In this document: one piece after another, positions 37,036 to 50,437 of the stretch | Numbering within the stretch: position 1 is the first letter of the stretch | How the letters are laid out: each line of letters starts with the position of its first letter | Source of the DNA: Candidatus Kryptoniota bacterium | Lineage (GTDB): Bacteria > Bacteroidota > Ignavibacteria > Kryptoniales > JAKASW01 | Length of the DNA stretch: 64,000 nt | Assembly (NCBI GenBank): GCA_024641705.1 | Contig: JAHECO010000010.1 | Location: 37,228-101,227 of the forward strand | Direction of reading: 5' to 3' | Program-made: the position numbers and the translations under genes | Notes under the pieces: model-generated | Database searches by the model: none | What the model was told of the DNA's origin: nothing | Seen by the model: only the letters and a program-made list of their open reading frames with translations

Positions 37036-37353
37036 TCAAACGCAGCCGGTCGGTTTCGCCAGACCCGCCACCTTACAGGCACCTTTCGCCGGACCCGACG
37101 GGTACAGGTCGTAAATTTCCTTCAGAGAAAAGCCGGTTTCTTTGCAGACCTTTCTCACCATAGGTGCGATTCCGTACTGCTTGTAATAATCACGAAGGTA
37201 GTAGACGATCTTCCAGTGAGCCTCTGTCATCTCTTTCACGTCTTCAGTCGTAGCGAGTGCCTTTGCTACGTCTTCGTTCCAATCCTCAGGTTTCTGCATG
37301 AAACCGTCTTCATCGACTTCAATCTTGACATTTTGATATTCGAAGGTCGGCAT
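37036..37353 (-). CDS. dsrC: DsrC/TusE-family protein
   Basis: DEDGFMQKPEDWNEDVAKALA...ITEAHW-like region; C-terminus GACKVAGLAKPTGCV with both conserved Cys. Confidence 0.96.
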   Translation of the reverse strand: MPTFEYQNVKIEVDEDGFMQKPEDWNEDVAKALATTEDVKEMTEAHWKIVYYLRDYYKQYGIAPMVRKVCKETGFSLKEIYDLYPSGPAKGACKVAGLAKPTGCV

Positions 37354-43928: not shown

Positions 43929-45059
43929 TTACTTGATCGGAATTTGCAGCGACCTTACCGCTAATTCCACGATGAAAGTCTTCATTTCAGGGCTGTCGAT
44001 CTGGACGTCCAGGGGTTTGGGCAGCGTACCACAATTGAAGTTCGTGAAATGAGTTTCACATGGACGCTGAAGGTAAAGTGAAAGGCGGCTGAACCCGATC
44101 GGAAGAGGCTCCAGCATCCACCATGCGATCCATCCGTTTATCACGGGATACGGGTCGTACTTGATCATGTGAAACTTCTCGAACCTTTTGTGGAAAGCCG
44201 CCAGCAGACCTTCAAACCGCGTCGAAGGGGTCTGGTTGACCCTCTCCTGAAGCCGCTTGAGAAAGCAATCCCTCGAATTGAGTACGAGCTGCTTCACCCT
44301 CTTGTCCTTGAATATCACCAGGTAGTCCTCAAGCATGCATGGACCGTTATTCATGCGGGCTATCATTGCCTCCTGGATCAATTTCTTCGCATCCACGGAA
44401 TGATGGAGCTCATCCTTCAATTCTCTGTCATAGCAGGTCCTGGTGAAGTTGTGAAGCGTCACCGAGTAAGGAAAGACAACTTTCAGAGCGTCTTCGATTA
44501 CTTTGAACCCGTAAGACATGAAAGTGGGACATACGACTCCCCTGCAATTCAGTCGATCCAGCAAGGTTATCCAAATATCCTCCGATTCACACTCACCAAT
44601 CTCGAAACCGAGCACAACGGTCGACAGCGCATCTATCGCCATCGCCAGATACATCGAGTGCCCGTTGGAATCGTCCGAGTTGGCCTTGAACTTTTCACCG
44701 ACAAGGTGGATCAACCGGGACTCGTGTTTCGGCGTGCAAGCATCGAGGTAGTCCTCCCAGAAGGAGCAGCCCCCGAGGTATTCCCGGATCTTCTGGTTGA
44801 TCCTGATCGGAGAACTCTGGTAAACGGAGCGGAGATCGCGGTAGGAACATCCTCCGAGGTACTCTTTGGCCAAACGGCCAAAGTTTGGAGTCTGCCTCCG
44901 CGGCGGATTCTTCACCCAGGTTTTCTTGCACCGAATACACCTGTAGCGAAGGTTATTGGCCGAAGTCTTTCCGTGTTTAACTACTTTTGAACTGTGACAA
45001 AAGGGACACACTACACTTTTTTGAATCTCGAAACATGAAGTTGCTAGTTGTGGAGTCAT
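43929..45059 (-). CDS. Transposase-like protein with N-terminal zinc ribbon; DDE region looks degenerate
   Basis: CPFCHSSKVVKHGKTSANNLRYRCIRCKKTWV zinc ribbon; YLAMAIDALSTVVLGFEIGECESEDIWITLLDRLNCRGVVCPTFMSYGFKVIEDALKVVFP resembles IS256/mutator-type cores. Confidence 0.7.
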   Translation of the reverse strand: MTPQLATSCFEIQKSVVCPFCHSSKVVKHGKTSANNLRYRCIRCKKTWVKNPPRRQTPNFGRLAKEYLGGCSYRDLRSVYQSSPIRINQKIREYLGGCSFWEDYLDACTPKHESRLIHLVGEKFKANSDDSNGHSMYLAMAIDALSTVVLGFEIGECESEDIWITLLDRLNCRGVVCPTFMSYGFKVIEDALKVVFPYSVTLHNFTRTCYDRELKDELHHSVDAKKLIQEAMIARMNNGPCMLEDYLVIFKDKRVKQLVLNSRDCFLKRLQERVNQTPSTRFEGLLAAFHKRFEKFHMIKYDPYPVINGWIAWWMLEPLPIGFSRLSLYLQRPCETHFTNFNCGTLPKPLDVQIDSPEMKTFIVELAVRSLQIPIK

Positions 45060-45590: not shown

Positions 45591-47507
45591 TCACTTGACG
45601 CTCAGCCCGACATCCGGCAGAACCACGTTATCGAAATGCGGGACACTGATATCCCATTTCATTCCGGCCCTGAGATTCGGAGGCGTTCCTACTCTATGAC
45701 ATGTGGTGCAGAGAGCCAGGTCCTGTTTATCCTTTACCACTTTAGCTTCGACGACGTGGCAGGAGACGCACATCTTGTGCATGGCATCCGTGTAGGACAG
45801 TATATGGTACGCCGGTGTAGCGCCAACTCCGATCGTTGTGAATTTGTAAAAGGGATGGCACGCCGTGCACTTTTTTGCCGATTGGGCGGTTCGAGTTACC
45901 CCGGCGGTGTGGCAGTCATCGCATTTGAGCTTGGCTCCAGCAGGCGATGCGTGCCAGTCATGTCTGAAGAAGTCCGCTTGCGCATACATGCTTGCATGAC
46001 ATTCCCAGCATTCGCTTAGACGTTCTCCCGGAAGGTTCAGGTGATGACAGACACTGCAACTATCCTTTCCCGCCAGCGCGAAGCCGCTGGTGTCGTCTGC
46101 CGGGCTTGTCGGTATTTTATGTGTTCGGATCCACGAGATGTGCGCCTGGTGAGGGAATTCGACGAACTGATCATCCCTGTTGCCATCGATGCACAGCGTA
46201 TCGATACCCGTCGCGCGGCTGACCGTCACACTGTCTATACCTTCCGCATGCAATTTTCTCCCGGGCATGAACGCCATACCGACGGCGAAGCTTAACACAA
46301 ACGCGAGTGTGTGCTTGGTCAGTGATGCGATCCTCGGTACCCCTAACCACGTCCTCGAGGAATAGTCGAACGACGGAGGCGTATGCGGCAAGGATTGCGG
46401 ATCTTCGGGACGTATTTCCCAGATGTGGAAACGTTCGGTTACGAACAGGAAGGCAAGGGCTGCTGCCGACACGATGCCCAGGCTTATCGCGATTTCCATC
46501 CATGACGGCGTATATGACGCGGTGGAGTCAAGCATCGCCAGTCCTCCGACGTCGATCCGGTTGAGCACCATTCCAATCACCACCATCGAGGAGCCGACCC
46601 ACTGAACCTTGCTGTTCCTTCGCAATTTCGGGACTGCGAACAACGCCATAGGTATCAAGGTCGACACCAGGATTTCCACTATGAAAAGATCGCTCTGCCA
46701 GTTACCATTGAATATCAATCCGAATTTTCCGGCCGCCACGATATCGGTCATCTTCACTATGAAATAGACGGCGAGGACCCATACAGCGGCCCCGCACAGT
46801 TTTCCGACCAACGGCGTTTCCGGTTCACGGCGGTAGAGCCAGTGGGATATAAGACTTTCGAAAGCAACCATCATCAGGCCAAGCGCCACGGCAGAAATGA
46901 AGAATTGGATCGGAAGTATATGTGAATACCACAGCGGAAAAAGCCTGTATGGCATGATCAAAAACAAGGTCCCAAGAGACGATTGATGAAGTGTCGAAAG
47001 CATTATGCCGAGGAGAACGAGCGGGAACCGGAACCTCATGAGAAAATTCCTGACCCTGGCGTAGCGGCTGGATTCTTCAAGCGGGACCGGACTGAATTCG
47101 AGCAACAAGACGGTCGTGTAGAGCATGACGCACCAGCCGACCTCGAACAACGGCGAATGAGGATTCCAGTAGATTATCATGTGCCAGATATTCCACGGCA
47201 ACCCAAGGTCGACGAGCAAACCTGCCACTACGGCAAGGTAGCCGAGGAAAGCTGTCAACACGGCTGGCCGAACCAGCGGGTGAAATTCTTCCCGCTTCAT
47301 GATATAGAAGATCGCCGTCGTCACGAACCCTCCGGCAGCCAGGGCAACTCCCGCCATCACATCGAAACCTATCCAGAAGCCCCACGGCGTCTTGTCGTTC
47401 AGATTGGTCGTAACGCCCAACCCGAAGACGTACCGGTTCAGCGCTATCGCAGCGGCGAAGCCTGTCATGAGCCACAAGACTAGTTTTGTATTCTGCACCC
47501 TATTCAT
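45591..47507 (-). CDS. NrfD/HmcC-like membrane subunit fused to a hexaheme cytochrome c domain
   Basis: N-terminal multi-TM NrfD-like region (KTPWGFWIGFDVMAGVALAAGGF); extra TM HTLAFVLSFAVGMAFMPG; then CSVCH, CWECH, CDDCH, CTACH, CVSCH, CTTCH. Confidence 0.9.
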   Translation of the reverse strand: MNRVQNTKLVLWLMTGFAAAIALNRYVFGLGVTTNLNDKTPWGFWIGFDVMAGVALAAGGFVTTAIFYIMKREEFHPLVRPAVLTAFLGYLAVVAGLLVDLGLPWNIWHMIIYWNPHSPLFEVGWCVMLYTTVLLLEFSPVPLEESSRYARVRNFLMRFRFPLVLLGIMLSTLHQSSLGTLFLIMPYRLFPLWYSHILPIQFFISAVALGLMMVAFESLISHWLYRREPETPLVGKLCGAAVWVLAVYFIVKMTDIVAAGKFGLIFNGNWQSDLFIVEILVSTLIPMALFAVPKLRRNSKVQWVGSSMVVIGMVLNRIDVGGLAMLDSTASYTPSWMEIAISLGIVSAAALAFLFVTERFHIWEIRPEDPQSLPHTPPSFDYSSRTWLGVPRIASLTKHTLAFVLSFAVGMAFMPGRKLHAEGIDSVTVSRATGIDTLCIDGNRDDQFVEFPHQAHISWIRTHKIPTSPADDTSGFALAGKDSCSVCHHLNLPGERLSECWECHASMYAQADFFRHDWHASPAGAKLKCDDCHTAGVTRTAQSAKKCTACHPFYKFTTIGVGATPAYHILSYTDAMHKMCVSCHVVEAKVVKDKQDLALCTTCHRVGTPPNLRAGMKWDISVPHFDNVVLPDVGLSVK

Positions 47508-48270
47508 CGGAGGGTTCCTTCTTCTTGCCTTGTTCCTTGTCCATTTTCATCCTGCGGCGGATAATCCAGCTGAGCCCGAGCATCACCCCTCCCATGCCGA
47601 CGAATGCATACGGCACCGATTCCATTGCCGCCGCCGTCTCTTTGGGAAGCGCCGCGCCGTTCGGCCTGGTCGGATAAGTGAGGAAGTCGAGATCGATGTC
47701 CGACAAGTATAAAACGGAAGTGCCGCCCACCTCATGTTCACCCCACACCCTCTTGATGTATTTGGACGGGTTCTCATTTATTCGTCTGTGAGCCACCTTA
47801 AGAAGTTCGTCGCGGTCCCCGAACATCGTCGCCCCCGTCGGACAGGCCTGTGTGCATGCCGGCTGCTCGCCTATCCTGATCCTGTCATAACACAGGATAC
47901 ATTTCTCCACATGCGGGACTGTCTTGTCCCAGTCGTAACGCGGGATGCCGAACGGACACGCCATCATGCAGTAGCGGCATCCGAGGCATTTGGCGCTGTC
48001 GTATGTCACCGCGCCTATCTCCGTCTTGTGCAATGCCCCCACCGGGCAAACGGAAGCACACGCCGGCTCGAGACAGTGACGACATTGTTTGCGGACGTAA
48101 CGATCGCCGTCCTTGCGGATTACCGAGGTCCAGTTTTCCGCGGACAGCCCGTCATTCTTATCCCACACTCTCGGCACGTCCATTTCCAGGTTGTGCGCTA
48201 CCTTGCAGGCAGAAACACACTTAAGGCAGCCGATGCATTTTGTAACATCGGTCAGAATCGCTTTACTCAA
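47500..48270 (-). CDS. 4Fe-4S ferredoxin-type subunit (HmcB/HybA-like) with C-terminal TM
   Basis: CIGCLKCVSACKVAH; CRHCLEPACASVCPVGAL; CLGCRYCMMACPFGIPRYDW; CILCYDRIRIGEQPACTQACPTGA; C-terminal VPYAFVGMGGVMLGLSWIIRRRMK; TTG start after GGGAG. Confidence 0.92.
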   Translation of the reverse strand: MSKAILTDVTKCIGCLKCVSACKVAHNLEMDVPRVWDKNDGLSAENWTSVIRKDGDRYVRKQCRHCLEPACASVCPVGALHKTEIGAVTYDSAKCLGCRYCMMACPFGIPRYDWDKTVPHVEKCILCYDRIRIGEQPACTQACPTGATMFGDRDELLKVAHRRINENPSKYIKRVWGEHEVGGTSVLYLSDIDLDFLTYPTRPNGAALPKETAAAMESVPYAFVGMGGVMLGLSWIIRRRMKMDKEQGKKKEPSDE

Positions 48271-48977
48271 ACCGGTGCTCCCTTTTTATTAAGCGTGGTG
48301 CAAATGTCATCATCGGTCTCGGGCGGAAACTTCCAGGCTAATGCACAGACGACCTGAGACAATGGTGCCAGCACGCAGTGCGCTATCTTCGAGAAAGGTA
48401 TTAGGACGAATATTAATTCGGCAGACAAAACATGTACTAGCATGAGAACCTGATAGCTCCCGGGCCCCACATCCACGTTTGCGCAGATGAACCCGGTCAC
48501 GAAGGGGACCAGGAGCAGAAGGAGCCATAGATAGTCCCGGCCAAGGCTCAGGGCACGCATTGCCTTCACCGTCAAACGACTGATGAGGAGGAACAACGCG
48601 GAGGCTATGGTGCAGATCGTCAGCCAGAAGGCCCATGAGTACGGAAGCGCCGGCCAGGAAATTCCGACCGCTTCCTTCCAGAGATTGACGTGAGCGAAGA
48701 AAAACAACGGGACAATTATGAGCCCTATGTGAAAGACTATGGACAACAAAGAATACACGTGCCGTTCCCGGATCACTCTCTTCACAGGGAAAAACCATTC
48801 GAAAGACCGGCTGAAGATAAGCTTCCACGGCATTTTCTTGTCCGTCGTTCTGCGGTAGGCTCTGTACATCCCGATAATGTCAAGAAACAGAAGACGTGCC
48901 AACCCGAGCACCATAATCGCGAAGGTAAGCCGAAAGAGCGGGCCACGGGCAAAATCCAGAAGGGCTCCCATATTCAT
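48267..48977 (-). CDS. DsrM/HmcE/NarI-like cytochrome b membrane subunit
   Basis: RSFEWFFPVKRVIRERHVYSLLSIVFHIGLIIVPLFFFAHVNLW; VHVLSAELIFVLIPFSKIAHCVLAPLSQ. Confidence 0.88.
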   Translation of the reverse strand: MNMGALLDFARGPLFRLTFAIMVLGLARLLFLDIIGMYRAYRRTTDKKMPWKLIFSRSFEWFFPVKRVIRERHVYSLLSIVFHIGLIIVPLFFFAHVNLWKEAVGISWPALPYSWAFWLTICTIASALFLLISRLTVKAMRALSLGRDYLWLLLLLVPFVTGFICANVDVGPGSYQVLMLVHVLSAELIFVLIPFSKIAHCVLAPLSQVVCALAWKFPPETDDDICTTLNKKGAPV

Positions 48978-50437
48978 TTCTCCTTCTCGATTACTTGCGC
49001 TTCCTTCTCGACGCGCAGCGATTCATCAAAAATGATCGCCTTGTAGATCAGGTCATGGAATCCGACGACACGGCAGTTCAATCCCTGGTCTTCAACCAGT
49101 TCTCTGAGCTGTTTCTTGCAGTTCGCACACGGAGCGACGAGGATTTCACAACCCGACTTCCGGATCTGGTCCGCTTTCAATTTTCCGCCGATCGTCGTCC
49201 TGTACGGCCTGACCTCATCAATCGAGACCGTCCCGCCCCCGCCGCCGCAGCAGATGTTGTCTTCACCGGTGGGTGTCATCTCGACATAATTCCTGCAGAA
49301 TGCCTTCAGGACTTCGCGGGGCTGGTTCACTATCCACCTGTTCCGGGCATAGTTACACGGATCATGGTATGCGACTTTCTCCGTCACGATGTCCGGGTCG
49401 AGCTTGAGTCTTCCCTCTTTCCACACCCTGTGAGTGTACTCGAGGATGTTTACAACGGGAGTCGCGTCGCTTCCCCCGCAGTATGTCGGTATGAACTGTT
49501 TGGCGGTGCGGGACGCATGCCCGCATTCGCCGATGAGAATTTTCCTGCCGTGAAGCCTGTTGGTCTCTTCGTCGACTTTCCTGACCACTCTTTCAATTAT
49601 CCGGTCGCTGTAGAACAACCCGTAGTTGATCCCGTCGTAGTATCCCGTGCCGATTGTCCAGGAGTCACCCGTCGCAGTGAACACGGCGGCAATTCCCATC
49701 AGCGATTCCGCCTCCATGAGGTAGTCACTGACAGCCGGGAAGAACACATGTTCGCTCCCGTCGACGTCGACGGGGAACCTGATCCTTACGCCTTTTTCCT
49801 CGAACATATCGCCTTCGAGAAACTCGAGTGTGTCTTTCAGCGCGGGTACCGGTATCGCCGACGTGTTCTTGAAGGGACCTTCGAGTTGTGCGCGCGTGCT
49901 GACGACAAGTGCGCGCGGGACGATACCGATCTCGCTCAGTATGTAACGGCCGAGATGAGTGATCAGACCGTGGTCCAGTCCGAGCGGACATTCAAGGGCG
50001 CACCTGCGGCAGGCCGTGCAATTCCAGAATGTGTCTGCCATCTCCTGGATTTTCTCATCCGTCAGATATCCGTTGCCGGTAATCCGCCCTCTCAGAAGGC
50101 CCCCGAGCGTGAAATGACGGCGATAGACATCGAGCAAAAGTCCGGAACGGTAGCACGGGATATCCTTCGGGTCACCGGTTGCCTGGTAGATCTGACAGGC
50201 GGCGGCACACCGCAAGCACCTGGCGGTCATTCGTATGAAATGGTCCAGGACCATTTTGTAGTTGGAGTGTTTCAGGATCGCCGCGAATGCTTCCAGGAAA
50301 CGCCGGGGGCGATCGTTCACGTCGATATCTTCAACGTGATACCGGACGTTCAATTTTTGTCTTTCCACGACCTCCGGTTTCTTGGTTGTGGAAAGAGCTT
50401 TCTTACGTTCCTCTTCGGTTAGAATCGTGGTTTTCAT
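48974..50437 (-). CDS. DsrK/HmcF/TmcB-like (Fe-S) HdrD-type subunit
   Basis: CLRCAAACQIYQATGDPKDIPCYRSGLLLDVYRRHFTLGG; CTACRRCALECPLGLDHGLITHLGRYIL; YHDPCNYARN; CCGGGGGTV; CANCKKQL. Confidence 0.92.
   Translation of the reverse strand: MKTTILTEEERKKALSTTKKPEVVERQKLNVRYHVEDIDVNDRPRRFLEAFAAILKHSNYKMVLDHFIRMTARCLRCAAACQIYQATGDPKDIPCYRSGLLLDVYRRHFTLGGLLRGRITGNGYLTDEKIQEMADTFWNCTACRRCALECPLGLDHGLITHLGRYILSEIGIVPRALVVSTRAQLEGPFKNTSAIPVPALKDTLEFLEGDMFEEKGVRIRFPVDVDGSEHVFFPAVSDYLMEAESLMGIAAVFTATGDSWTIGTGYYDGINYGLFYSDRIIERVVRKVDEETNRLHGRKILIGECGHASRTAKQFIPTYCGGSDATPVVNILEYTHRVWKEGRLKLDPDIVTEKVAYHDPCNYARNRWIVNQPREVLKAFCRNYVEMTPTGEDNICCGGGGGTVSIDEVRPYRTTIGGKLKADQIRKSGCEILVAPCANCKKQLRELVEDQGLNCRVVGFHDLIYKAIIFDESLRVEKEAQVIEKEK

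Follow-up and report, generated by a model that had tools for sequence, protein, structure and literature searches.

A gene that joins an NrfD-type membrane subunit and a hexahaem class III cytochrome c in one reading frame has been identified in a Candidatus Kryptoniota bacterium, within the whole 64,000-nucleotide stretch of DNA analysed here (the window). The fusion is real and apparently undescribed, as no description of an NrfD and hexahaem fusion was found in the literature searched, which included the NrfD review (PMC8076601), most subscription papers lying outside the search; the complex is of a known kind, Hmc-like, in compact form. Together with the products of three preceding genes, here called F, E and B, the fusion probably builds a compact Hmc-like transmembrane redox complex (F-E-B-Fusion), of which it would be the quinone-site and cytochrome subunit, and it is read as an HmcC and a shortened HmcA that became one polypeptide. 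The fusion, its conservation, the operon, the cofactor motifs and the distribution in a single clade are the parts of this picture that the sequences show.

Domains, conservation and distribution of the fusion

The fusion protein, an HmcC/HybB-like NrfD domain followed by an additional helix (TM11) and a hexahaem class III cytochrome c, is encoded by a single ATG-started open reading frame of 638 codons on the minus strand (45591..47507), read from 47507 to 45591. The preliminary description had one 638-aa frame with a multi-TM NrfD/HmcC-like region, an extra TM and six CxxCH motifs; Pfam, AlphaFold2 and the motif positions agree and its coordinates are right, to which the strand, absent there, is added, stops interrupting the plus-strand frame over 45591-47507. 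The domain search that it had proposed places both parts above the cut-offs: Pfam NrfD (PF03916) matches residues 34-318 with 68.1 bits (cut-off 25.8), while the C-terminal third matches Cytochrom_CIII with 31.9 bits (cut-off 22.9) and the protein matches Cytochrome_C7 with 26.5 bits (cut-off 24.8). The best NCBIfam match is HmcC, at 314.6 bits under the equivalog cut-off of 550, followed by a HybB-type model, also under its cut-off. Pfam, NCBIfam, AlphaFold2, Foldseek and charge counts support an NrfD/HmcC-like domain at residues 1-368 (46404..47507, minus strand), with ten predicted membrane helices and the N-terminus inside. The AlphaFold2 model, built on a 42-sequence alignment (pLDDT 71, pTM 0.66), has ten long membrane helices, then a helix at residues 391-413, which holds most of the hydrophobic segment noticed earlier, and then a poorly modelled cytochrome region with pLDDT mostly 35-79. 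In Foldseek, the membrane part matches ActC of alternative complex III (E 2.4e-8) and more weakly PsrC (E 1.6e-3); the ActC/PsrC-like fold with ten helices and the PF03916 score above the gathering cut-off place it in the NrfD family.

The cytochrome domain (residues ~440-606, 45690..46190, minus strand; Pfam Cytochrom_CIII/Cytochrome_C7) is by sequence closest to HmcA and NhcA, and its structure-profile matches are 1z1n (E 1.8e-16), 2e84 and 19hc. Along the minus strand its haem motifs are CSVCH (residues 484-488, 46044..46058), CWECH (500-504, 45996..46010), CDDCH (529-533, 45909..45923), CTACH (547-551, 45855..45869), CVSCH (580-584, 45756..45770) and CTTCH (600-604, 45696..45710); in the fourth, C550 and H551 are invariant and C547 is present in at least 90% of the sequences. 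Outside these motifs the alignment has exactly six invariant histidines in the domain, H453, H456, H489, H516, H519 and H577. Six CxxCH motifs and six further invariant histidines provide the number needed for six haems, which suggests that all six are bis-His ligated; the Cytochrom_CIII match above cut-off, the six motifs and this putative ligation fit a class III multihaem cytochrome.

A search for the same fusion in other genomes, suggested in the preliminary description, recovered full-length homologues with the same junction on 43 contigs outside the window (41-82% identity; counted from the neighbourhood table after a scan of the genome collection and a search of relatives, redundant copies left out). 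Six CxxCH motifs occur in 42 of these 43 proteins, L046 having five. Since the junction is common to homologues on 43 contigs, the window contig aside, an assembly or frameshift artefact is in practice excluded. One Kapabacteria contig (L048, 4012-5434) has a homologue with a break, probably a sequencing error, that falls within the NrfD part and away from the junction.

In a quick tree of 104 NrfD domains, computed without a mixture model, the 44 fused proteins group together in a single clade (SH-aLRT 100), outside which fall HmcC of Hmc operons and unfused Fe-S/NrfD pairs. The contigs of the fused clade are labelled Bacteroidota, Ignavibacteriota, Zixibacteria, Calditrichota, Acidobacteriota, Myxococcota, Bdellovibrionota, Chloroflexota and Fibrobacterota, of which single labels may be wrong because nearly all carrier contigs are metagenome-assembled. 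The simplest reading is apparently that the genes fused once and that the product then spread or was lost. The fusion is no peculiarity of the window genome: its clade spans nine phylum labels, and for most of it no dsr genes are in view. Within the phylum the fusion is rare, as a survey of 297 genomes at E <= 1e-110 found it in the window's own genome only.

Partner subunits and relation to known complexes

The operon reads F-E-B-Fusion, with the fusion gene last and overlaps of 4, 4 and 8 bp. F (48974..50437, minus strand) is an HdrD/DsrK/HmcF-like cytoplasmic Fe-S protein with a CCG-type cluster motif (C361, C396-C397, C437, C440); E (48267..48977, minus strand) is a TmcC/HmcE (NarI-like) cytochrome b in which His 83, 96, 182 and 200 fit two b haems. 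Both are related to their namesakes, TmcC/HmcE and DsrK/HmcF, and keep the conserved histidines and CCG motif, with scores under the equivalog cut-offs. B (47500..48270, minus strand, TTG start), which overlaps the fusion gene by 8 bp, is an HmcB/HybA-like protein with 16 conserved cysteines, as for four [4Fe-4S] clusters, a C-terminal membrane tail and no signal peptide. Of the 43 outside loci, 42 have B next to the fusion (gaps of -17 to +42 bp), 40 have E and 32 have F, some of the absences being contig ends.

With Hmc of Desulfovibrio (HmcABCDEF) the complex shares an HmcC-type NrfD protein and a tail-anchored HmcB-like Fe-S protein, its cytochrome b and HdrD protein are related to HmcE and HmcF, and HmcA structures are the best matches of the fusion's cytochrome domain. 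However, this cytochrome is six-haem and joined to HmcC, whereas Hmc has a separate 16-haem HmcA; complete B subunits of the fused family have the C-tail but no Tat signal; and the small hydrophobic protein HmcD is missing from the F-E-B-Fusion operon, where the overlaps of the four genes leave no room for it. The HmcA model scores 20.8 bits on the fusion against a cut-off of 400, and the scores for HmcA, B, C, E and F are all under their cut-offs. On these grounds the complex stands outside strict Hmc. The nine-haem Nhc complex equally combines an NhcA-like class III haem domain with an NrfD subunit, but NhcA is a separate protein, and NhcABCD is listed without HmcE/F-type subunits (PMC8076601). 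DsrMKJOP likewise unites a DsrK-like protein (F scores 278 bits), a b-type cytochrome, an Fe-S protein, an NrfD protein and haem c in one complex; its DsrJ is, however, a separate triheme protein, and a canonical dsrMKJOP is encoded apart in the same window. The fusion's NrfD domain scores 31 bits on DsrP (cut-off 350), B scores 104.9 on DsrO (cut-off 200) and the fusion has no DsrJ match in NCBIfam. A DsrP-DsrJ fusion was rejected, as the NrfD and cytochrome parts match the HmcC and HmcA types and separate dsrMKJOP is present.

That cytochrome and NrfD subunits are separate in Hmc, Nhc, Tmc and Dsr, as stated at the outset, holds in the papers searched. The inclusion of Tmc is apparently a slip, since Tmc is not known to contain any NrfD subunit. 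In the modules of an Fe-S and a HybB-like protein (PMC10924467), a tail-anchored Fe-S protein equally lies directly upstream of the HybB/NrfD protein and a signal-less variant has been described, but the cytochromes are separate and the partner of the signal-less variant is an FeFe hydrogenase that travels through Tat. Another recurrent locus (L117, 5464-7500; L119, 5448-7491; L067, 7147-9110) pairs a signal-less tail-anchored Fe-S protein with a HybB-like protein that is not fused, and a sensor kinase, a regulator and a GcvH-like protein are encoded nearby. Geobacter CbcL, with nine haem motifs and six TMs in one chain, resembles the fusion as a functional analogue in which a quinone-linked membrane domain and a multihaem cytochrome share a single chain, but its haems are N-terminal, and a HydC/FdnI-like b-type cytochrome takes the place of NrfD in the membrane (PMC6295460).

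Proposed wiring and competing readings

In the proposed complex, the NrfD part would take the standard orientation, N-in, with the quinone site near the periplasmic face, and TM11 (residues 391-413, 46269..46337, minus strand; a helix in the AlphaFold2 model), a linking helix or retained signal-like segment, would carry the class III hexahaem domain into the periplasm. Electrons would move among menaquinone, B with its four clusters and the haem chain on its covalent tether, while E with its two b haems would connect the membrane to cytoplasmic F, the CCG cluster of which would handle a thiol/disulfide substrate. The placement of the haem domain in the periplasm by the extra TM, already put forward in the preliminary description, agrees with the charge counts: lysine plus arginine averages 17.3 on predicted inside loops vs 3.5 outside, with the same sign in 42 of 42 sequences, which puts the N-terminus inside and the haem domain on the outer side, the one needed for the attachment of haem c.

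The best internal evidence supporting this wiring is the covariation of F with the haem ligands of E. Four histidines (83, 96, 182, 200) are normally conserved in E, and by analogy with NarI, H83 and H200 would bind the haem that lies closest to the cytoplasmic partner. Seven E proteins, from acidobacterial L023 and from six Myxococcota loci, lack H200, and the six also lack H83; F was undetectable in the fetched DNA of all seven (L023, L038, L041-L044, L052), its absence being uncertain in L042 and L043, where only about 1.2-1.8 kb upstream of E was available. The Myxococcota loci that retain F (L034, L037, L040) retain all four histidines. In L031 all four are kept and F was not seen in the only 1.3 kb upstream, so its absence there is uncertain. 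Loss of H200 only in loci without detectable F supports an electron link between F and E, with the E haem serving F.

The junction still resembles a signal peptide. A421 (46245..46247, minus strand) is a candidate -1 position of a signal peptidase I-like site, the residue being A, S or G in 38 of 42 homologues with mostly L, I or V at 419, and in the window protein a positively charged flank precedes a short hydrophobic core, so that cleavage as in cytochrome b/c1 (fbcH-type) precursors is possible. Such a precursor is a precedent for a fused gene product cut after synthesis. Applied here, TM11 would be an internal signal peptide whose removal by signal peptidase I frees a hexahaem cytochrome that docks like HmcA, and the fusion would fix stoichiometry and secretion without tethering the electron path. 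We regard this as rather unlikely, since four members carry R, N, K or E at 421, charged residues often stand just ahead of the candidate site, and small residues of TM11 are kept by position (406 in 39, 408 in all and 410 in 36 of 42 homologues), which suggests that the helix is packed and not discarded as a signal would be. Of the direct tether between cytochrome and quinone-site subunit proposed earlier, the genuine gene fusion thus stands, while the signal-peptide-like junction makes a single mature chain less certain.

The location of B is equally debatable. No complete B of the fused family has a Tat or Sec signal, each starting directly ahead of the first cluster motif, whereas HmcB-type proteins at L083, L084 and L085 carry RR (twin-arginine) signals, and a signal-less B is at odds with a topology that needs periplasmic clusters. 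As the operon encodes no Tat-bearing partner and signal-less FeS-NrfD pairs also occur alone, B might be cytoplasmic, its four clusters on the inner face relaying electrons between F and the membrane and the hexahaem domain taking electrons directly from P-side quinol. This arrangement appears doubtful, because two conserved arginines, R239 and R240, come after the C-tail of B and positive charge is greater after than before the TM in 39 of 41 proteins, which predicts a C-in tail with clusters outside, and because the NrfD part keeps its standard orientation. Moreover, B could cross the membrane through Tat with a partner, as proposed for a signal-less tail-anchored Fe-S relative that would hitchhike with FeFe hydrogenase (PMC10924467). 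A broader claim, that the carriers in nine phyla share an undescribed respiratory complex family in which a quinone-site subunit with its own hexahaem wire and an Fe-S subunit without export signal connect cytoplasm, quinone and periplasm unlike every characterised NrfD complex, is judged improbable at present.

Multihaem cytochromes fused to or associated with membrane quinol modules are typical of extracellular and iron-linked respiration, for example CbcL (PMC6295460), and carriers outside Bacteroidota show no dsr genes near the fusion in the fetched flanks. The complex might thus be a quinol:cytochrome c oxidoreductase that feeds periplasmic cytochromes, a functional analogue of Geobacter CbcL with an incidental dsr link; yet this is quite unlikely, as most loci conserve an HdrD-like F and a dihaem E, which indicate a thiol partner in the cytoplasm, no outer-membrane conduit was recognised beside the fusion in the neighbourhoods read, and co-occurrence with dsrA in the window's genus is exact.

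For the compact Hmc-like complex, the fixation of cytochrome and quinone subunit in one chain and the minimal four-gene set make a good structure target, and natural forms without F and without the E haem ligands offer a built-in comparison for the roles of F and of that haem. The mode of electron exchange between NrfD complexes and periplasmic cytochromes is debated, as is whether these complexes pump protons.

Association with sulfate reduction genes

A complete-looking dissimilatory sulfate reduction island of a Bacteroidota-type genome extends over 17919-43435 of the window (minus strand) with aprAB-, sat- and qmo-like genes, dsrMKJOP (36146-30639), dsrC at about 37039-37338 (minus strand), dsrL-like and dsrN-like genes and dsrAB. 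Between dsrAB and the fusion operon lies a 376-aa frame (43929-45059, minus strand) that begins with a zinc ribbon (CPFCHSSKVVKHGKT...) and has the appearance of an IS1-like transposase; a similar frame occurs near the fusion operon of L012 (15255-16391).

In the window's genus dsrA and the fusion occur in the same 7 of 13 genomes (7/7 with dsrA vs 0/6 without), a pattern with an unadjusted chance of 1 in 1716, for which joint inheritance or transfer is an alternative to joint function as the fusion and dsrAB are mostly linked. In this genus, where the complex accompanies dsrAB, the substrate of F would plausibly be the DsrC trisulfide or disulfide, and the complex would be a second, cytochrome-c-coupled route beside DsrMKJOP. 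The window genome also has NiFe hydrogenases, with small subunits that begin with RR-type signals, as possible periplasmic electron donors. The complex is also part of the respiratory equipment of those Bacteroidota with sulfate-reduction genes. In the fetched flanks no dsr genes stand beside the fusion outside Bacteroidota, so that a role with DsrC cannot be general and in other carriers the cytoplasmic partner must often differ; a sulfur-specific role for the whole fused family was rejected, as dsr genes adjoin Bacteroidota members only.

A link to defence systems was dismissed, PADLOC giving no match. Two copies each of the fusion gene and dsrA occur in one 84% complete genome (G012:C39 and G012:C1), where the duplication may stem from binning. 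Fusion operons often have as neighbours response regulators with PAS kinases, NifX/FeMo-cofactor-like proteins or MinD-type ATPases (L011, L012, L016, L017, L020, L027, L046, L047), and a second DsrMK-like pair is present in the flanks of L011, L012 and L017.
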